This document shows positions 9,175-21,449 of a stretch of 22,777 nucleotides of DNA, one piece after another. A program made the position numbers and the translations under genes. The DNA comes from a virus, in IMG/VR virus record IMGVR_UViG_3300037070_001047, positions 1 to 22,777 of that record; one strand, written 5' to 3'. The stretch's first letter is position 1. Each line of letters starts with the position of its first letter. Under the pieces are notes generated by a model, which was given only the letters and a program-made list of their open reading frames with translations, was not told where the DNA came from and did no database searches.

Positions 9175-11673
9175 ATGCCCGACATTCATCCGATCAACCT
9201 GAACCCCGGCCAGTTACGGGTTCCGAGCGTTGATTTTTCATGGCTGGCGAACCTGCCGCAGACGTTCCAGCAGGGCCAGGCGAACCAGCTGAAGATCGAC
9301 GAGGCGAACCGCAAGCAGGGCGCGCTCGCCGAGCTGTCAAAACTTAACCCGAACGATCCGAACTTTGCCCAGCAGGCTGCGGCCCTCGCCTTCAAGCTCG
9401 GCGATTTCGGTGCAGGCGCGTCGCTGCTCGAACATGGCCTGAAGCGTCAGGGCGTGGAGAGTTACAGGTCGGGCGGCAGCATTCTTGGCGGCGTCAATGC
9501 GCCCGCAGCGACGCCTGCAGCCCCGGCCGTTGCTCCGGCACAGGCCCCCGCACAACAAGCGCCAGCGCAGCCGCCAGTCACCACGAACCTGCCTCTTTTC
9601 GGCCGCCCGCAATCCCTTCAGGGAACGACGGCGCCGGGTGGAACGGTGGCGCCGGCTATACCTGCATCAGTCTCGCAGGCGTCTGCCACAGGCGGTGATC
9701 CAGTGACTTTTGCTCGCTCACAGCTTGGGCGCGGCGAAATTCCAGACCGGGCGGCGCTACAGGACTACCTGAAAACGGGCGGCGCGAACCTCGATCCGGC
9801 GACACTGGCGTGGTGCGCCGCTTTTGTGAATGCCTCACTCGGTCATGCCGGGATCAAGGGCACCGGATCGAATATGGCGCGGTCGTTTTTGAATTTTGGC
9901 TCGCCGACCACAGCGCCAAAGCCGGGCGACATCGCGGTATTTCAGAGGGGCGGTCCCAACGCAGCGACAGGCCATGTCGGATTTTATCAGGGTCGGGACG
10001 CTAACGGGAATATCCTCGTCCTTGGTGGCAATCAGGGCAATCAGGTGAGCGTGGCGCCTTATCCGGCTGCTTCGTTGCTTGGATATCGTAGTGTCGGAAT
10101 GCCGGGCGAGACGGGCACGGCTGGTCCAGTTGGAACCACATCTCCCGGCACGGTCGCAGCCTCAGTTCAGGGCCGCGGACCATCCAGTTACGGCCAGGGC
10201 GGGGCTGCTGTCGCGTCGGCAATGCCTCAGACGCCGATGGCGCGCACGCAGGTTGCCGCGCTCGATCCCAGCTATACGCCGCAGACGAGCATGACGGACG
10301 CGGGTCCGCAGCTTCCTGCAGGCGTGAGCCCCGCCGCTTCGGCGGCACAGGGAGCGGCGGGGCCGCCAATGCAGCTTCCCAATCCGACGCCGCTCGTGCC
10401 GCCGAACATCTCTTTGGCGGCACTTGGGCGCCCTCCCGAGGGCGGCGTCGGAACCATCGGCCCGATGGGCGCTGCGGCAGCGGATGCAATGCCTCCCCAA
10501 GGCGTTCAGGTGGCTCAGGCTGCGCAAGGCGCACCGGGGGCATACCAACTGCCGTGGAATTTCACGCAGCCACAGGGCGCTCCTGCGCTGCCTGTGCGGC
10601 CTCCGGTCCAACAGGCTCCGGTCCAACGCCCGGCGGTAGCGCCACAAACGCCACCCGTGGCGCGGGGCGCGGTCAGCGGATCGCCGCTTGAGCACGTTCC
10701 GGTCGAGCGCCTGGTGCGGGCGGCAACGCACCCCTATGCGCCAGAGGGCGAGAAACAACTCGCCCTGCAGGAATTGAAACGGCGATCGGATGTTCAGGCC
10801 GACGCGAACAAGACATCTACGGACTACAACGATTATCTGGCAGAGTTGCGGGCCGGAACGTTCAAGGGCACCCGCCTCGAATACGAGCAGGCGAAGAAAG
10901 CGGACGTTACCCTCAAGCGCCTCTATCAGGGTGTTGTCGAGGATCGCGCAAGGCGCGGCCTTCCTCCGGAGCCGGAAGGCGGGTTCGAGCAGTTTGTGAA
11001 GGACAATAAAGCTGGCACGAACCTCACCATCGATCAAAGGCAGCAGGACGCCGAGCAGAAGGGCAAGCAGGAGCGCTTCAACACGCGCGTCGAGCATGCG
11101 ATGGCCGCTGGCGCCAGCGGCTTCGAATTGCAGCGCAGCATCGGCGCCCTGCGCGAACTGGGCGTTAAGACCGGCGCGAAGGCGGCGATCACCGGCTGGC
11201 TGGCCGAACGCGGCGTCAAGCTCGAAGGCGCCGGCGAGGCCGAGGCCTTCAATTCGATAATCGACAAGATGACGCCGTCGCAGCGCATTCCCGGCGCCGG
11301 CGCAACGTCGGACTTCGACGCCAAGATGATGAAGTCGGGGCTGCCGAGCCTGATCCGATCTGGCCTGGGCCACGAGATCATCATGAACACCTATGAAAAA
11401 CTCGGGAAGAACTATGAGGCGCGCGGCGACCTCGCCAACAGCTACGACGCTGGCGACATCGACAAGGCGACGTTCATGAAGGAACTGAACAAGCTCGGCA
11501 AAGAGGCCTACCAGATCGGCGTCGACGCGGTTCGCGACGCCAGGGCTGCGGAGGCCAAGCGCAGCGAGCCTGGAGGTGGCGCCAGACTGTCCGAGCCGCC
11601 GCCGGGCACCGATCCGGGCGCTTGGGCCGAGATCCTGAAGGCCTATCCCGGCCTTGCCGGCGGCAAGAAGTAG
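9175..11673 (+). CDS. Internal virion protein with CHAP-like peptidoglycan hydrolase domain
   Basis: This 832-residue protein starts one base after the previous stop. Residues 1-100 are helical (SWLANLPQTFQQGQANQLKI). Residues about 175-300 form a CHAP/NlpC-P60-like domain of the TIGR02594 style: LAWCAAFVNASLGHAGIKG with candidate nucleophile Cys214, KPGDIAVF, then GHVGFYQG with His267, and GGNQGNQV with Asn286. Such domains cut peptidoglycan peptides. Residues about 310-515 are a Pro/Ala/Gln-rich linker. Residues about 520-832 are helical (RVEHAMAAGASGFELQRSIG, MNTYEKLGKNYEARGDLANS). The protein probably enters the cell envelope with the DNA and opens the wall locally. The CHAP part is less GC-rich than its flanks, suggesting module exchange. 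Confidence 0.75.
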   Translation: MPDIHPINLNPGQLRVPSVDFSWLANLPQTFQQGQANQLKIDEANRKQGALAELSKLNPNDPNFAQQAAALAFKLGDFGAGASLLEHGLKRQGVESYRSGGSILGGVNAPAATPAAPAVAPAQAPAQQAPAQPPVTTNLPLFGRPQSLQGTTAPGGTVAPAIPASVSQASATGGDPVTFARSQLGRGEIPDRAALQDYLKTGGANLDPATLAWCAAFVNASLGHAGIKGTGSNMARSFLNFGSPTTAPKPGDIAVFQRGGPNAATGHVGFYQGRDANGNILVLGGNQGNQVSVAPYPAASLLGYRSVGMPGETGTAGPVGTTSPGTVAASVQGRGPSSYGQGGAAVASAMPQTPMARTQVAALDPSYTPQTSMTDAGPQLPAGVSPAASAAQGAAGPPMQLPNPTPLVPPNISLAALGRPPEGGVGTIGPMGAAAADAMPPQGVQVAQAAQGAPGAYQLPWNFTQPQGAPALPVRPPVQQAPVQRPAVAPQTPPVARGAVSGSPLEHVPVERLVRAATHPYAPEGEKQLALQELKRRSDVQADANKTSTDYNDYLAELRAGTFKGTRLEYEQAKKADVTLKRLYQGVVEDRARRGLPPEPEGGFEQFVKDNKAGTNLTIDQRQQDAEQKGKQERFNTRVEHAMAAGASGFELQRSIGALRELGVKTGAKAAITGWLAERGVKLEGAGEAEAFNSIIDKMTPSQRIPGAGATSDFDAKMMKSGLPSLIRSGLGHEIIMNTYEKLGKNYEARGDLANSYDAGDIDKATFMKELNKLGKEAYQIGVDAVRDARAAEAKRSEPGGGARLSEPPPGTDPGAWAEILKAYPGLAGGKK

Positions 11674-14701: not shown

Positions 14702-15691
14702 ATGACAGGAACATTACCCTCGATCCCGCTGGCGCAGAACGTCGATGAGAACGGCCTGCCGCTCTCGGGATGCCGACTGTTCATCTTCGAAGCCAACACC
14801 TCGACCCCGATCATCGCGTACAAGGATTATCTGCTGTCGGCCGGCATGGAGCATCCGACGCCGATCGTCGCCGACGCGCTCGGCCGCATCCCCATGTTCT
14901 GGATGGCCGACGGCTTCTATCGGGCGCGGCTGGAGGATCGTTACGGATCGGTGATCTACGACGAGCCCTATATGGCCGTGCTCTCGACCGCGACCGGCGT
15001 CGGGGGCGGGGGCGGGGTGGTCGAAAATCCGGCCTTCCTGACCGGCGACTTCATGTGGCAGGCGATGAGCGGCGGCCGAAGCGGCTGGGTGATCGCCAAC
15101 GCGCTGACCATCGGCAATGCGACGTCAGGCGCGGCCCAGCGCGCCAACGCTGATTGCGCGGCACTGTTTACGACGTTGTGGAACCGTTTTGCGCAGGAGC
15201 TGTGTCCGGTGATTGGCGGGCGCGGCGCGAGCCCCGCCGCGGACTGGGACGCCAGCAAGCAGATCGCGACCTACGACATGCGGGCGATGGGCATCCGCGG
15301 CGTCGACGGCATGGGCAACAGCACCACCACGCGCTTCAACTACACGCTGCTGCACAACGGCGTGAGCACGGTGCCGGGCGCCGTGGTCGGGCAAAATGCC
15401 CAAACCATGGTGTGGGAGCAGATGCCCTATCACGGCCATGTCGCCACCGTGACCAATACGATGGAGGTCTCGCCGGCCCAGCATCAGCATGTCTTCACCG
15501 GCGGCACCTATGTCATGGGCGGCGGCAGCGGCGGCAACCAGTACGACTGGTCGGGCACCCCCTTGCTGACCGATCCGGTGACGCTGGCGCTGACCGGCGG
15601 CGTCAGCGTCAGCAACGCCAACGCGGGCGGCGGCCTGCCGCACGACAACGTCCCGCTCGACGTCATCGGAACATGGTTCATCAAACTTTAG
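14702..15691 (+). CDS. Tail fibre/collar-type appendage protein
   Basis: The product is 329 residues from ATG 14702, chosen because GGGAGGGG lies at 14690-14697; a TTG at 14669 in frame is less likely. Residues 1-98 resemble a virion-binding N-terminal domain of tail spikes (GLPLSGCRLFIFEANTSTPI, then ADGFYRARLEDRYGSVIYDE). A Gly-rich linker follows at about 99-104. The rest resembles tail-collar or fibre-tip proteins: two HxH motifs (His244/His246 and His261/His263), a Gly-rich region, and the ending PLDVIGTWFIKL, typical of collar-domain proteins. HxH motifs bind metal ions in some fibre tips such as T4 gp37. It probably attaches to the tail hub and contributes to receptor recognition. Confidence 0.7.
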   Translation: MTGTLPSIPLAQNVDENGLPLSGCRLFIFEANTSTPIIAYKDYLLSAGMEHPTPIVADALGRIPMFWMADGFYRARLEDRYGSVIYDEPYMAVLSTATGVGGGGGVVENPAFLTGDFMWQAMSGGRSGWVIANALTIGNATSGAAQRANADCAALFTTLWNRFAQELCPVIGGRGASPAADWDASKQIATYDMRAMGIRGVDGMGNSTTTRFNYTLLHNGVSTVPGAVVGQNAQTMVWEQMPYHGHVATVTNTMEVSPAQHQHVFTGGTYVMGGGSGGNQYDWSGTPLLTDPVTLALTGGVSVSNANAGGGLPHDNVPLDVIGTWFIKL

Positions 15692-15698
15692 GCGACAA

Positions 15699-16046
15699 AT
15701 GAGCTACGGCGGCACCCTTCCCGAGGCCTCGAACCTCGCAAGCTGGCAACAGCAGATCGAGTTTCTCGACAGCCAGACGAGCGAGAAGATGAGCCTCGTC
15801 GGCGCGCAGGACATCATCATCACGATCGCCGCGCCGAACTGTCGGCCCAGCCTCGAGGGCAGCCTGATCGGCGGCGAGATCGTCATGGCGAGCGACTTCC
15901 TGTCTTGCACGGTGAGCTTTCCGCGCTCGCGCATGCAGTCGCTCTCGCCGCGCACCTACGACATCGGCGCGCGCGTGATCTTTGAATACGACCTCAACGA
16001 GAAGCAATGCATGCTCGGCCACCTGCCGATCGTCGGAGGCCTGTGA
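15699..16046 (+). CDS. Small tail-region protein, 115 aa
   Basis: The gene starts 7 bases after the collar-type fibre and overlaps the next gene by one base (TGATG). The protein has a helical start (LASWQQQIEFLDSQTSEKMS) and then beta-like segments (LVGAQDIIITIAAPN, GSLIGGEIVMASDFLSCTVS, YDIGARVIFEYDLNEKQCML). I recognise no specific family. Its place inside a fibre cluster suggests a connector, chaperone or small fibre component. No signal peptide or membrane helix is visible. Confidence 0.6.
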   Translation: MSYGGTLPEASNLASWQQQIEFLDSQTSEKMSLVGAQDIIITIAAPNCRPSLEGSLIGGEIVMASDFLSCTVSFPRSRMQSLSPRTYDIGARVIFEYDLNEKQCMLGHLPIVGGL

Positions 16047-17587
16047 TGGTGATCAGGACATCCGTCCGGTCCCAGAACCCGCGCCTCGCGCTCTCGGTCG
16101 ACGGCGACCCGGCTCCGATCCGCGCTGCGGTCGTCGAAAAGTCGACGCTTCAGGGTCGCGTCATCCCGCAATTTCCGATCAATGTCGTCGGCGTTGGCGG
16201 CATCGTCATCCACAAGGAAAACGGGATATATACGTTCAGCCTCGGCGACCAGTCGGGCAACGAGTACATCAACGCCGCCGTCATCGTCAGCGACACGCCG
16301 CCCAGCAATGCGGCGCAGGGGACGCTGTGGTGGGAATCGGACACCGGCAGGACATTTCTCTACTACAACGACGGCGATAGCTGGCAGTGGATTCAGCAAA
16401 GCTCCTCGACCGGCGCCACCGGCCCGCAGGGGCAGACCGGCCCGCAGGGCGTCAGCGGCAATCCGGGACCGCCCGGCCCCGCAAGCACGGTGCCGGGGCC
16501 GGCAGGACCACAGGGCGTCAAGGGCGACGCCGGTCCCGCCGGTGGGCAGGTCATGTTCATGGGCGACAGCCCGCCGCCGAGCCCGGTTCATGGCGAAACC
16601 TGGTACGAAACCGACAGCGGCCAGAGTTTCGTTTTTTATGTCGACCCCAGCGGCCCGCCGGGACAATGGGTGCCGAGCAACGTCAACACCGGCGGCGGCG
16701 CGGGCGACGGCGTTTCCCTGCCGCTGACCGGGGCGCCCGGCGTAGTTACCAATACCGGCATCCTCATTCCTTATTATTTGTATCCGAGCCTCCCTTATAC
16801 GAACCCGAATGTTCAAGGGTTGCTGGATATAATGAAATCCAACCGCGACGTGCCGGTGCTGGTGGTTATCAATGCTGGATCACCCGGCGGGCCGGGGACC
16901 GTCAACGATGTGAACTGGGATACGTTCATCGGGATGGTGCACGGCGCGGGCGGGAAAGTTCTCGGATATGTCGACACCAATTACGCCACCGTGGATGAGG
17001 CTTTCGTCAAATCCGAAGTCGACGGCTGGCTCAGCATCTACCCGACAAATCGCATCGATGGGGTCTTTTTCGACCAGATGCCGTATGAGACCGGACCCGG
17101 CGGCGTCGGCACTGATAACGTCGATTATTTCAAACGCCTGACTGACTACTGCCACGATCTGGGTCTCAATCCGGTCGTCGGAAATCCGGGCGGCAATCAA
17201 CAGCCCGCGTGGTTCGAGACTTATACCTCCGACATCATCGTCGTGCATGAGAACTCCACATGGCCCAGCGAAGCCAGCATGCAGGGCAACTTTGTAGGTG
17301 GTCATATTTTTTATCCGCCGTCACGACGGGGCGGCATGGTTTACAATCAATCCACTCTCGACACCGTGGCGCTGGATACTTTGCGCAAATATGTTCAATG
17401 GGTTTATGTAAACAGCGACAATCTCCCTAACCCTTGGGATGCGCTGCCATCGTATCTTGGCGAGTTGTTTGGCGCAGTTAGTCTAAATGAACCGACGGGC
17501 GGCAGTCCGTGGGTCGAGCTGACGCAGGCCGAATATGACGCCTTGAGCCCGCCCGATCCCGACACGCTCTATATTGTGGTCGATTAG
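16046..17587 (+). CDS. Collagen-stalked tail fibre with Spherulin-4 (GH135/GH114-like) glycosidase domain
   Basis: The start is ATG 16046 (CGGAGG at about 16034-16039). The 513-residue product has an N-terminal domain (1-78), a first SDTPP/WWESD module (79-117), collagen-like Gly-x-y repeats (about 121-167) and a second module copy (169-211). A Spherulation-specific family 4 type barrel follows (about 239-475): ILIPYYLYPSLPY, VPVLVVINAGSPGGPG, GKVLGYVDTNYA, DGVFFDQMP, NPVVGNPGG, DIIVVHENS. By analogy with the Asp-Asn-Glu set of GH135 enzymes, Asp343, Asn380 and Glu402 are candidate active-site residues. The end (LTQAEYDALSPPDPDTLYIV) is a common fibre terminus. Known relatives cleave galactosamine-containing polymers; a capsule or exopolysaccharide depolymerase role is inferred. 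The enzyme part is less GC-rich than the stalk. Confidence 0.78.
   Translation: MVIRTSVRSQNPRLALSVDGDPAPIRAAVVEKSTLQGRVIPQFPINVVGVGGIVIHKENGIYTFSLGDQSGNEYINAAVIVSDTPPSNAAQGTLWWESDTGRTFLYYNDGDSWQWIQQSSSTGATGPQGQTGPQGVSGNPGPPGPASTVPGPAGPQGVKGDAGPAGGQVMFMGDSPPPSPVHGETWYETDSGQSFVFYVDPSGPPGQWVPSNVNTGGGAGDGVSLPLTGAPGVVTNTGILIPYYLYPSLPYTNPNVQGLLDIMKSNRDVPVLVVINAGSPGGPGTVNDVNWDTFIGMVHGAGGKVLGYVDTNYATVDEAFVKSEVDGWLSIYPTNRIDGVFFDQMPYETGPGGVGTDNVDYFKRLTDYCHDLGLNPVVGNPGGNQQPAWFETYTSDIIVVHENSTWPSEASMQGNFVGGHIFYPPSRRGGMVYNQSTLDTVALDTLRKYVQWVYVNSDNLPNPWDALPSYLGELFGAVSLNEPTGGSPWVELTQAEYDALSPPDPDTLYIVVD
16280..16396 (+). repeat. Fibre module copy A (SDTPP...LWWESD...QW)
   Basis: This encodes residues about 79-117 of the Spherulin-4 fibre: SDTPPSNAAQGTLWWESD, then GRTFLYYNDGDSWQW. 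Related copies occur at 16550-16678, 19534-19650 and, shortened, 20071-20133. It looks like a small beta domain used as a spacer between fibre parts. Confidence 0.65.
16412..16546 (+). repeat. Collagen-like Gly-x-y repeats
   Basis: About 45 codons read mostly as Gly-x-y triplets (GATGPQGQTGPQGVSGNPG, GPAGPQGVKGDAGPAG). Collagen-like stretches in phage fibres form trimeric stalks, so the Spherulin-4 fibre is probably a trimer. Confidence 0.8.
16550..16678 (+). repeat. Fibre module copy B
   Basis: This is the second copy within the same gene: GDSPPPSPVHGETWYETDSG, then QSFVFYVDPSGPPGQWVPS. It lies between the collagen-like stalk and the enzyme domain. Confidence 0.6.
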
Positions 17588-19201
17588 ATGGCGCTGCTCA
17601 ACACAGCCGACGCGATCTACATCGGCGCAACGCCCGCCGATAAAGTCTATCTCGGTTCAAACCTCGTTTGGGAGCCCGCAGCAGGAGGTCCGTGGACGCC
17701 GCATGAAATCGAGACCGGCATGTATGGCTGGTGGGATGCTTCGATCCCTGAGAGCCTGACCTTCATCGGCGTGAACCTGCTGGAGATCGCCGGGCAGGGG
17801 CCGGGCGGTCTCCACATGGGCCGCGCCGCCAGCTCAGGACCGACAGCCACCACCATCAACGGGCTGGGAGCCTTGGCCATCACCTACGATCAGGGGCTGA
17901 TGACCCCCAGTGCGACGACCTTCAACGACTTCACAATTTTCGCCGTGTGGAACCCCGGCTTCAGCGACGGCGTCACCTACGAGCGCATCGTCGATCATTC
18001 CTACGCGGCGGGCTGGTGGTTCGGGCGAACCGGCGGCACCGCGACATTCGGCGGCGGCATCATGGAGGGGCCGGAGGTCGGATACGGCATCTTCGTGCCG
18101 CTGGCCAACAACGAAGTTCACCAGATTTCCAACGTGCGTGAAGGCGCTGTCCATCGCATCAGCGGCAACGGCGGCTCGGTCACCAACAGCCGGGCCATTC
18201 ACACCAGTGCTACGGCCTCCAATCGCGTCTACATGGGGCAGGACAATCTTGGAACGTCAGACCTGACCGACGGCAAGATCGGCGAGGTCATCATCTGGAG
18301 CCGCGCCATCTCTACCGACGACATGCGGAAGACCGAGGGCTATCTCGCCCACAAGTGGGGTATTCAGGCTAAATTGCCCGCCGACCACCCCTACAAGGCC
18401 GCGCCTCCGATGCTGGGAGGCCCGCCCCCCTTGCCGGTTACGGCGGGCTTGGCCGTCCGGCATGACGCCAGTCAGTTAAGCCTCGCCGATGGAGCCAGCG
18501 TCACGGCGTGGCCGAACCTTGGCTCCGGCAATGCCGCCACTCTTGTTGGCACGCCACTCCCCACTTTCAAAGCGGCGGTCACGCCGACCGGGTTGCCCGC
18601 CGTGCGCTTTACCGGCGACGGTGCGGGGCTGCGCGGCGACAACACGTCGATCTACTCGCCCGGCTTCCCGCTCAAGCATTCGTGGACGATGCTCTATGTG
18701 GCGCGTCGCTGGGGCACGCTCGGCGGCAGATGTTTCACCGCGCCTTATCCCGAAGGCGAGAACGTCCTGATCGGCTATCACACCAGCGGCTATGACTGCA
18801 TGCACCAGCCGATGGGCTGGATCAAAGCGCCGACGGCGTTTCCGGCGACGCCGCCCGATCCGTGGAAGCTGTATGCGGCCACCGATCAGGAGAGCGTCGG
18901 CGTCAAGTTCTACATCAACGGCGTTCAGCAGGGCGGGCTGTTCGTCGTCTCGGCCGCGCTGAATTATTACTACAACCTCAACGGCTATTACCGGACATCC
19001 GGCGGCAATAACTCGACCGCTGGCGAAGGCGGCGATTTCGACGTCTGCGAGTTGCTGATCTACGACCGCGTGCTCTCCGACGCCGAGCGTGCGCAGGTCG
19101 AGGATTATCTCCGCGCCAAGTGGGGCGTCGCGCCGCCCGCCGCTGCTGACTTCGCGCGACCTGCACCCGGCCCCATGCCGCCGCCTCTGGTGATGCCGTG
19201 A
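17588..19201 (+). CDS. Tail protein with two tandem LamG/ConA-like lectin domains
   Basis: The gene follows the glycosidase fibre without a gap. The 537-residue product begins with a short strand motif common in phage tail proteins (DAIYIGATPADKVYLGSNLV). Domain 1 (about 45-260) and domain 2 (about 285-514) both look like LamG/concanavalin-type jellyrolls. Each starts with a GxxxWxDAS or AVRHDAS strand and ends alike: GEVIIWSRAISTDDMRKTEG then YLAHKWGI, and CELLIYDRVLSDAERAQVED then YLRAKWGV. The C-terminus is Pro-rich. Such domains bind carbohydrates, so it may hold the phage on surface polysaccharide beside the neighbouring depolymerase. Its stop overlaps the next start as GTGA. Confidence 0.72.
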   Translation: MALLNTADAIYIGATPADKVYLGSNLVWEPAAGGPWTPHEIETGMYGWWDASIPESLTFIGVNLLEIAGQGPGGLHMGRAASSGPTATTINGLGALAITYDQGLMTPSATTFNDFTIFAVWNPGFSDGVTYERIVDHSYAAGWWFGRTGGTATFGGGIMEGPEVGYGIFVPLANNEVHQISNVREGAVHRISGNGGSVTNSRAIHTSATASNRVYMGQDNLGTSDLTDGKIGEVIIWSRAISTDDMRKTEGYLAHKWGIQAKLPADHPYKAAPPMLGGPPPLPVTAGLAVRHDASQLSLADGASVTAWPNLGSGNAATLVGTPLPTFKAAVTPTGLPAVRFTGDGAGLRGDNTSIYSPGFPLKHSWTMLYVARRWGTLGGRCFTAPYPEGENVLIGYHTSGYDCMHQPMGWIKAPTAFPATPPDPWKLYAATDQESVGVKFYINGVQQGGLFVVSAALNYYYNLNGYYRTSGGNNSTAGEGGDFDVCELLIYDRVLSDAERAQVEDYLRAKWGVAPPAAADFARPAPGPMPPPLVMP

Positions 19202-20136
19202 GTTTCGATTTTCCATCCTCGCCGACAGAAAATCAGGAGTTCACGCCCTCCGGCGGCGTCTCGACCTACATATGGAAAAGCCCGAGATGGGTGGCCAAGC
19301 CGATAGCCGGGCCGCCCGGACCCGCGGGACCCGCTGGGCCGACAGGACCCGCCGGGGCGCCCGGCACAACATCGTGGACGGGCATCACCGACAAGCCGTC
19401 GACATTCGCGCCCGACCCAGAAGCTGTGGATGACCGTGTCGCTGGGCTTCTGACGGCGGGAACCAACATCACGCTCAGCTACAATGACGCAGGCAATGCG
19501 CTGACCATCAATGCGTCGGGCGGCGGCGCATCGGTCACCATCAGTGATACCGCGCCTGGTTCGCCGACCGCCGGCTCGCTCTGGTTCGAGAGCGACAGCG
19601 GCAAGACGTTCATCTACTACACCGACGCCAATAGTAGCCAATGGGTTCAGGTCAGCGGCGCGCAAGGCCCGCAAGGTCCGCCCGGCGAAATCGATCCGGC
19701 CGTGCTGGCGACGAAAGTCGATGTCTCCGGCGACACGATGACCGGCGATCTGATCCTCAACGGCGTTTTGGTTCAGACCAGGGCATCGCCTTGGTTCGTT
19801 CTGAACTCAACGACGACGACCGATCAGGCATGGTTTCATTACACCCGTTCAGGGATTCAGCGCTGGTCGCTGCTCATGCAGGGCGGCGGCGAAACCGATC
19901 CGCAGGGCGGCTCCGACCTCATGCTCTGCCGCTGGACGAATGCAGGCGGCTTTCTTGATGTGCCGCTCGCCTTCACCCGCGCAACCGGGCTGGGAACCGT
20001 TCTTGCCGATCCGACCGCGCCTCTCGGCATTGCGACCAAGCAGTATGTCGACGCCCGCGTTGCGACCAAGATCACCGTCGCATCGTCCGCGCCGGGATCG
20101 CCCGCCGTCAATGACGTCTGGATCGACACGACCTGA
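19198..20136 (+). CDS. Tail fibre with collagen-like stalk
   Basis: The start is GTG 19198, overlapping the previous stop (GTGA). The 312-residue product begins SFDFPSSPTENQEFTPSGG, nearly the same as the fibre at 21695. Collagen-like repeats occupy residues 38-56 (GPPGPAGPAGPTGPAGAPG), with a shorter GPQGPPGE after the SDTAP/WFESD module (residues 113-151). Then VDVSGDTMTGDLILNG and IATKQYVDARV, both widespread fibre motifs, flank a beta-rich part. It ends in a shortened module (ASSAPGSPAVNDVWIDTT) and stops there. It is probably a trimeric fibre without an obvious enzyme domain. The stop overlaps the next start by one base. Confidence 0.72.
   Translation: MSFDFPSSPTENQEFTPSGGVSTYIWKSPRWVAKPIAGPPGPAGPAGPTGPAGAPGTTSWTGITDKPSTFAPDPEAVDDRVAGLLTAGTNITLSYNDAGNALTINASGGGASVTISDTAPGSPTAGSLWFESDSGKTFIYYTDANSSQWVQVSGAQGPQGPPGEIDPAVLATKVDVSGDTMTGDLILNGVLVQTRASPWFVLNSTTTTDQAWFHYTRSGIQRWSLLMQGGGETDPQGGSDLMLCRWTNAGGFLDVPLAFTRATGLGTVLADPTAPLGIATKQYVDARVATKITVASSAPGSPAVNDVWIDTT
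19309..19365 (+). repeat. Collagen-like Gly-x-y repeats
   Basis: Nineteen codons read as Gly-x-y triplets (GPPGPAGPAGPTGPAGAPG), a short trimeric stalk in the second collagen-type fibre. Confidence 0.8.
19534..19650 (+). repeat. Fibre module copy C
   Basis: SDTAPGSPTAGSLWFESDSG, then KTFIYYTDANSSQWVQ, is closely similar to copy A in the Spherulin-4 fibre. It again lies next to collagen-like triplets. Confidence 0.65.
20071..20133 (+). repeat. Shortened fibre module copy D
   Basis: ITVASSAPGSPAVNDVWIDT matches the first half of the module and runs into the stop codon, so the second half is missing. Confidence 0.45.
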
Positions 20137-21449
20137 TGGCTACATGGTATATCTGGTCAGGCGCGACCGGCGCGGGCACAGGGGCTGATTGGGCCAACGC
20201 CTACATCACCTTGCAGGCTGCGGCTGCGGCGAAGGCGGCCGGCGACACCTTCTATGTCGCGCATGATCACAGCCAGACGCTAGGCTCCGCGCTGACCATC
20301 ACGTTTCCCGGCACGGAGGCGCTGCCCAACCGGGTTTACTGCGCCAACCGCGCCGGAACCGTGCCTCCCGTCGCCGCCGATCTGCGGACTACGGCCGTCA
20401 TCGCCACGACCGGCGCGAATGGCATTACGCTCGTCAATAGCGTCGCTGAACTGAATGGCTTTATTTTCCAATGCGGCGACGCAGCCGGTCTCGCGACGTT
20501 GACGACGCAAAACGCGGCTCGCTCGATGCGACTGGTCAATTGCGCTTTGCGATTGACGAATACCGCGGCAGCGTCTCGCATCCAATCGTCGGGTTTGTCT
20601 ACCAGTCTCGTCGTCTGGGAGAATGTCACGGTTCAGTTCGGCAATGCGTCGCAAAGCATCAACGTCGGCGGACGATTTATCTGGCGCAATACGTCAAGCG
20701 CCATTACTGGCGCAACGATCCCGACCGCGCTGATAAGCCAGAACACAGCCGGTTCGCAGACGCTGATTGAAGGCGTCGACCTGAGCGCGCTGACGCCAAG
20801 CAAAACCCTGTTCTCGACGCAGACGGCGCAGAACGTCATCGCCACGGTCAAGGACTGCAAGCTGGGCGCTTCGTTGACGTTCGCGGTCGCCAATACGACC
20901 AACATCAATTCGCCGCAGAACATGCTGGTCCGCTCCGACAGCGCTGATACGACATACCGGCAGGAGCGTTACGCGGCGCAGGGTTCTCTGACGACTGAGA
21001 CGACGATTGTGCGCACTGGCGGCGCCAGCGATGGCGTGACGACGATTGCATGGAAGATCGTCACCTCGACGCTGAATACATGGGAATTTCCTTTCGAGTG
21101 CCCCCCGATCACGATCTGGAACGAGACTATCGGGTCGGCGATCACGGTGACGGTTCAGGGGATCTGGGGCGGCGGCGCGGTTCCCAACAACGATGAAATC
21201 TGGATTGATTGCGAGTATCTCGGAACGTCCGGTTTTCCGCAGGGAGCGAAGGCGACCAGCACTAAAGCGACCGGCCTCTCGACGGCCTCGGCGATCCCGG
21301 CCGGATCGGGAACATGGGGCGGATCGACAACCAAATTCGCGATGAGCGCGACATTCACAGCGCAGGAAAAGGGACCGATCACGGTCTATGTGCGCGCCGC
21401 CAAAACCAGTTCGACCTTCTATGTTGATCCGAAGCCGGTGATCACATGA
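20136..21449 (+). CDS. Beta-rich tail fibre/virion protein
   Basis: The 437-residue product starts with MATWYIWSGATGAGTGADWA and a following AGDTFYVAHDHSQT, a start I associate with phage tail proteins built on a right-handed beta-helix or similar repeats. Residues about 90-260 show repeated short hydrophobic strands with Asn/Thr/Ser turns (LNGFIFQCGDAAG, MRLVNCALRL, LVVWENVTVQFG, FIWRNTSSAI), consistent with a beta-helix. The C-terminal third is a separate beta domain. No catalytic signature is evident. It is coupled to both neighbours (TGATG upstream, ATGA downstream). The role in adsorption is inferred from the cluster. Confidence 0.62.
   Translation: MATWYIWSGATGAGTGADWANAYITLQAAAAAKAAGDTFYVAHDHSQTLGSALTITFPGTEALPNRVYCANRAGTVPPVAADLRTTAVIATTGANGITLVNSVAELNGFIFQCGDAAGLATLTTQNAARSMRLVNCALRLTNTAAASRIQSSGLSTSLVVWENVTVQFGNASQSINVGGRFIWRNTSSAITGATIPTALISQNTAGSQTLIEGVDLSALTPSKTLFSTQTAQNVIATVKDCKLGASLTFAVANTTNINSPQNMLVRSDSADTTYRQERYAAQGSLTTETTIVRTGGASDGVTTIAWKIVTSTLNTWEFPFECPPITIWNETIGSAITVTVQGIWGGGAVPNNDEIWIDCEYLGTSGFPQGAKATSTKATGLSTASAIPAGSGTWGGSTTKFAMSATFTAQEKGPITVYVRAAKTSSTFYVDPKPVIT

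Follow-up and report, generated by a model that had tools for sequence, protein, structure and literature searches.

A virion fiber encoded at positions 16046..17587 of the 22,777-base virus-record fragment analyzed here (the window) probably carries an Sph3-type hydrolase barrel that cuts host exopolysaccharide, is spread as a cassette, and sits in a slot for pectate-lyase-type depolymerase domains. The sugar-cutting domain concerned, Spherulin4, is best known from mold biofilms. Computational support comes from the domain family, the predicted fold, the conserved catalytic residues, the slot in the tail gene cluster, the exchange between phages, and purifying selection; catalysis, a trimeric state, the substrate, and a role in entry are what we infer from these.

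Architecture of the fiber gene

The gene encodes a 513-aa tail fiber or tailspike with a Spherulin4 (GH135-like) domain and was delimited from its open reading frame (ORF) and from PHROGs tail fiber matches, with E values down to 6e-13. Its ATG (16046-16048) overlaps the TGA of the preceding gene (TGATG). All features described here lie on the + strand. The N-terminal part (aa 1-76; 16046..16273) is the presumed virion anchor, a role assigned from its position, and its motif GI....NG.YTFSL resembles the N terminus of the tail spike of phage Pam5, with weak similarity (E = 0.13). A region with the fiber motif WWESDTGRTFLYYNDGDSWQWIQ follows (aa 77-122; 16274..16411) and matches the tail fiber families phrog_9729 and phrog_3304.

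The adjoining stalk (aa 123-168; 16412..16549) is collagen-like and consists of two runs of Gly-X-Y triplets, eight at aa 123-146 and six at aa 151-168. Several PHROGs tail fiber and collagen-tail families match this part of the protein. The Pfam Collagen profile (PF01391) reached 22.0 bits, under its cutoff of 27.2; the Gly-X-Y stretch is short. Beyond the stalk, a diverged second copy of the fiber motif, WYETDSGQSFVFYVDPSGPPGQWVP, was recognized by eye (16553..16690). The Spherulin4 (PF12138) domain occupies aa 239-478 (16760..17479) and is predicted from Pfam, a structural model, and Foldseek to form an Sph3-like (beta/alpha)8 barrel. The protein ends in a Phage_tail_C (PF24243) tail-tip peptide (17519..17581; Pfam E = 6.2e-9).

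An earlier note on this DNA had proposed a Spherulin4/GH135-type glycosidase at 16760-17475 within a collagen-stalked phage fiber. That interval nearly coincides with the Pfam domain bounds, all four motifs quoted in the note lie in frame within the ORF, and its numbering of D343, N380, and E402 is right for the ATG at 16046. The stalk is borne out by a total of 14 Gly-X-Y triplets and by the PHROGs collagen-tail matches, with the Pfam Collagen score below cutoff. The fiber setting is upheld by the phage genes on either side, by the tail-tip domain at the C terminus, and by the depolymerase/receptor-binding slot that the barrel takes in both syntenic and unrelated phages.

Domain family, fold, and active site

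The domain scored 109.9 bits against the Pfam Spherulin4 profile (curated cutoff, 30.2), covering profile positions 2-239 of 239. The E value was 1.8e-31 for the domain by itself and 1.3e-30 when the complete protein was scanned. A chance profile match was considered and rejected, as the score is far over the cutoff. Nothing besides Spherulin4 matched the barrel domain in Pfam, and the barrel had no match in NCBIfam or PHROGs. Searching the PDB with phmmer returned only the Aspergillus Sph3 structures (5c5g and 5d6t; E = 1e-9).

An AlphaFold2 model of the domain, built from 34 related sequences, has eight beta/alpha units, a mean pLDDT of 91.6, and a pTM of 0.91. Its best Foldseek matches in the PDB were again both Sph3 structures (5d6t and 5c5g; E = 3e-14; TM score, 0.77), and the runner-up had an E value of 5e-7. 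Identity to Sph3 over the structural alignment was 22-23%. The galactosaminidase Env-GH191 (9ep5) was a weaker match (E = 6.6e-6; TM score, 0.48-0.51).

D343 (17072..17074) is located at the end of strand 4 and aligns with the catalytic Asp of Sph3, D166. N380 (17183..17185) lies directly past strand 5, and E402 (17249..17251), at the end of strand 6, aligns with the general acid/base Glu222. These residues are domain positions 111, 148, and 170 in the model. The 34-sequence alignment shows no variation at D343, at N380, or at the NPG-loop Gly, and E402 is nearly invariant. The conserved Asn position matched by N380 is presumably residue N202 of Sph3. Spacing between the residues is also similar, with 36 (D to N) and 56 (D to E) residues in the Sph3 chain versus 37 and 59 in the fiber. 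The DNE triad was retained in each phage copy checked, with the exception of the tandem copies of one record (L011), in which Asp replaces Glu.

Sph3 is an endo-alpha-1,4-N-acetylgalactosaminidase, and its D166A variant is inactive (PMC8546845). The Asp/Glu pair is common to GH114, GH135, GH166, and GH191, and Glu222 of Sph3 is given in the same source (PMC12054363). For the nucleophile the two papers disagree, as Asp196 is printed in PMC12054363 versus the inactive D166A variant in PMC8546845; the 56 residues to the Glu aligned with Glu222 in the 5c5g chain fit D166. Overall, the family, fold, and residues named in the earlier note stood up: the PF12138 search gave a score far over the cutoff, Sph3 is the top structural match of the predicted barrel, and the proposed catalytic residues align with those of Sph3 and are conserved across almost all relatives.

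Phage context and the receptor-binding slot

The window encodes portal, major capsid, and head-closure proteins. Among named phages it comes closest to Pam5 and Pan3, both of Pseudanabaena (40-42% for the portal and 34-35% for the capsid protein). Pam5 is a podovirus (PMC9382816), and its gene order is shared with the window up to the tail spike gene. Upstream of the Spherulin4 fiber, the gene at 14702..15691 encodes a tail fiber/collar-type homologue of Pam5_16 (E = 1e-30), which is annotated as a tail fiber; this gene had no close match in IMG/VR. Between the two lies a gene for a 115-aa homologue of Pam5_17, annotated as a receptor-binding protein (15699..16046; pairwise E = 3e-9). The Spherulin4 fiber thus holds the position of the Pam5_18 "tail spike". 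Pfam gave no match for this Pam5 protein, and comparison of the whole fiber with it gave no significant similarity.

A prophage in a Pseudomonadota genome (G099) encodes a capsid protein 70-71% identical to that of the window and is syntenic with it as far as the homologue of the 14702-15691 gene, the last syntenic gene. Past this point, the prophage has a gene for a protein of 228 aa, followed by one for a spike of 777 aa. The spike carries a Pect-lyase_RHGA_epim domain as well as a collagen-like stretch that scores under the Pfam cutoff. Similarity between the whole fiber and this spike was confined to the collagen-like stretch. DNA of the same genome matches Azospirillum, Cereibacter, and Rhizobium plasmids, mostly at 60-80% identity, and from these matches an alphaproteobacterial host seems likely for this phage group.

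Directly downstream of the fiber, 17588..19201 encodes a 537-aa virion-type protein in which Pfam recognizes two stretches of Laminin_G_3 (ConA-like lectin) and which matches virion structural PHROGs. It is followed at 19198-20136 (+) by a gene with another short collagen-like stretch and a fiber motif, WFESDSGKTFIYYTDANSSQWVQ, resembling that of the Spherulin4 fiber, and at 20136-21449 (+) by a gene for a 437-aa fiber cluster protein with no PHROGs match and a weak, subthreshold Pfam match. Elsewhere in the window, between the head-closure and tail fiber genes, 9175-11673 (+) encodes a CHAP domain protein of 832 aa that may be a peptidoglycan hydrolase of the virion.

Cassette exchange with a T7-like phage

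The Spherulin4 domain is best read as a cassette that moves between phages. Positions 16744..17503 share 87% DNA identity with part of a fiber gene of IMGVR_UViG_3300037119_002477 (L002/L004), and the edges of this mobile cassette are sharp, with identity dropping to background on both sides. The partner fiber is 1257 aa long, is otherwise unrelated to the window fiber, and combines collagen-like triplets, a Spherulin4 domain over the PF12138 cutoff, and a C-terminal Peptidase_S74 chaperone. From its PHROGs matches, we read the structural gene set of this record as T7-like, and no homologue of the window capsid protein was found in it. Over the shared domain, dN/dS between the two phages is 0.08-0.11, and the protein is therefore under strong constraint.

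The fiber gene just upstream in the same record shares a 149-aa N-terminal part with the 1257-aa fiber (60% identity) and carries a pectate-lyase/EPS-depolymerase-like domain. Taken with the cassette, this pectate-lyase fiber indicates that the Spherulin4 barrel takes the position of the depolymerase domain in two unrelated phages.

Spread of the domain in viruses and cells

About ten other phage records carry Spherulin4, several of them with collagen, and the PF12138 cutoff was passed by all eight further viral ORFs scanned. Collagen flanks the barrel on both sides in L005, and collagen-like triplets precede it in L009 and L010. A tail fiber motif is present in the Spherulin4 protein of L007, and in L013 the Spherulin4 gene is two genes downstream of a tail fiber gene. 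In L006, the gene directly follows genes with matches to phrog_587 (structural) and phrog_11303 (tail fiber), and the domain may thus be in use in yet another type of phage. The tandem barrels noted above belong to a 1193-aa phage protein found in L011 (3153-6731) and L012. In both barrels Asp replaces the catalytic Glu, and these are possibly binding-only copies.

Among named phages, a tblastn search with the domain recovered only Rctr41k, and Rothia phage Spartoi surfaced with a more distant query. Rctr41k_46 carries PF12138 over the cutoff. Spartoi gp21 also carries PF12138, and its gene lies ahead of the lysin gene, after a set of four minor tail genes and another two small ones. A contig of the Chloroflexi metagenome-assembled genome (MAG) CFX4 (L036) encodes what is, by eye, apparently the same Spherulin4 protein as Rctr41k_46 (KX853513), a likeness that suggests a Chloroflexi host or a prophage for Rctr41k. 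Further viral matches in the structural library BFVD were several Siphoviridae proteins that already have the name "Spherulation-specific family 4" and, in addition, a tip attachment J-like fiber protein.

The window capsid protein had no match in seven other Spherulin4 virus records, some of which may be fragments, and the sharing of the domain is thus not explained by a common phage lineage. In the tree, the viral rows require five label changes, two of which are forced by starred branches; from these changes, more than one gain or loss of the domain is probable.

With a single-domain query, no confirmed relative was found in the GTDB contigs; an alignment query yielded 69. In IMG/VR, an alignment query recovered 12 loci, some of them from near-identical phages. 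The domain is uncommon in cells: of the 299 Pseudomonadota genomes sampled, 8 had it, as did none of 14 control genomes. Several cellular copies have an apparent secretion signal at the start, as judged by eye.

Proposed role of the fiber and alternative readings

We propose that the protein is a tail fiber or tailspike, probably trimeric, and that the phage is podovirus-like and a distant relative of Pam5. Its N terminus would join the tail, and the short collagen-like stalk would project outward, bearing the Sph3-type (GH135-like) glycoside hydrolase barrel and then the tail-tip peptide. Upon host contact, the barrel would act as a virion-borne endo-glycosidase, a depolymerase that binds and cuts exopolysaccharide, with Asp343 and Glu402 as the putative catalytic residues and Asn380 assisting. 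Cutting would clear a path to the cell surface and contribute to host specificity. As an exchangeable cassette, the domain would replace the pectate-lyase-type depolymerase domains of related or neighboring fibers.

The target is perhaps an exopolysaccharide with alpha-linked GalNAc or GalN, a putative substrate that, like the galactosamine-containing polysaccharide suggested in the earlier note, is drawn from family membership. Given the 22-23% identity to Sph3 and the TM score of 0.77, substrate preference may have drifted. That the barrel is a fiber glycosidase acting on a polysaccharide unrelated to GalNAc/GalN polymers is a real possibility, to which we give somewhat less than an even chance; it overlaps the main reading and differs in substrate alone. 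The distance of the fiber barrel from Sph3 and the occurrence of viral barrels in at least two separate lineages agree with such a change, as does the small number of characterized members, one or two per endo-galactosaminidase family (PMC12054363). However, the catalytic pair and the fold are common to all four endo-alpha-galactosaminidase families (PMC12054363), and our data hold no pointer to another sugar.

The barrel could also have kept its fold and become a noncutting, lectin-like domain for receptor recognition. Inactive glycoside hydrolases can serve as lectins on their own polymers (PMC8546845), the Asp-for-Glu replacement in the L011 tandem domains indicates that some phage copies may be noncatalytic, and the neighboring downstream gene bears ConA-like lectin domains. 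We nevertheless consider this unlikely for the window fiber, as the three catalytic positions are retained in it and in almost all phage copies, dN/dS is about 0.1, and the slot holds enzyme domains of the pectate-lyase type in related or neighboring fibers.

Very improbable is an auxiliary metabolic gene aiding host sporulation or stress survival, a reading published for three viral spherulation-specific family 4 proteins from the Atacama on the strength of the family's association with spore formation (PMC8269230): here the domain lies within a fiber protein with collagen-like and tail-tip parts among tail genes, many phage copies are fused to fiber parts while several cellular copies look, by eye, secreted and stand-alone, the characterized homologue Sph3 is a polysaccharide hydrolase, and the Atacama proteins are themselves long (mean, 1,265 aa), with genes near viral hallmark genes (PMC8269230). 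A sporulation or extremotolerance gene of the stand-alone host type was rejected, the barrel being fused to fiber parts in a tail cluster. A packaged host gene was likewise considered and rejected.

Novelty and comparison with known systems

In the open-licence literature, PMC8269230 was the only paper found on viral copies, where the three proteins were treated as host survival sporulation genes, and none was found that assigns the domain a fiber role. None of the open-licence papers containing "GH135" and "phage" appears, by title and abstract, to concern phage GH135. Phage proteins already bear the domain name through automatic annotation, and the presence of the domain in phages is therefore not new. 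What appears to be new is the recognition of Spherulin4 as an exchangeable module in the depolymerase slot of phage fibers. The length of the Atacama proteins, together with the present findings, suggests that they are probably tail fibers too, and the family name (spherulation) may have caused viral fibers to be misread as host stress genes. More tentatively, and in our view less likely than not, Sph3-type barrels could be a recurrent, horizontally exchanged class of phage depolymerase domains, acquired more than once, with which environmental phages breach cationic exopolysaccharides of the galactosamine type (GAG- or Pel-like), the Atacama "sporulation" genes included.

Sph3 and the PelA hydrolase have been studied as biofilm disruptors (PMC8546845), and no description of a phage-borne enzyme against galactosamine-rich biofilm polymers was found in the open-licence literature. 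A virion-borne version would broaden the toolbox for biofilm disruption and give a host range handle for uncultured phages.

The closest characterized system is Sph3 itself (GH135; Aspergillus clavatus; 5c5g and 5d6t), which has the same Pfam family, predicted fold, and catalytic Asp/Asn/Glu positions. In contrast to Sph3, which comes from a fungal galactosaminogalactan gene cluster, the barrel described here is a single domain of a phage fiber. The GH191, GH114, and GH166 endo-galactosaminidases have a related barrel with the Asp/Glu pair (PMC12054363), but the GH191 structure 9ep5 reaches a TM score of only 0.48-0.51 with the fiber barrel. Viral "spherulation-specific family 4" proteins (Atacama, BFVD Siphoviridae, Spartoi gp21, and Rctr41k_46) share the Pfam domain or the name; they have been published as sporulation genes or left hypothetical or automatically named, with a fiber depolymerase role unstated in the papers found. 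In its overall plan, the fiber resembles the tailspike depolymerases of the anchor and anchor-branch systems in Klebsiella phages, with their exchangeable domains (PMC6872550). Like these podovirus tailspike and receptor-binding depolymerases, it would combine N-terminal attachment, an exchangeable catalytic domain, a C-terminal part, and a location among the tail genes (PMC6872550), but its putative catalytic domain is a Spherulin4 barrel, where they usually have a beta-helix.
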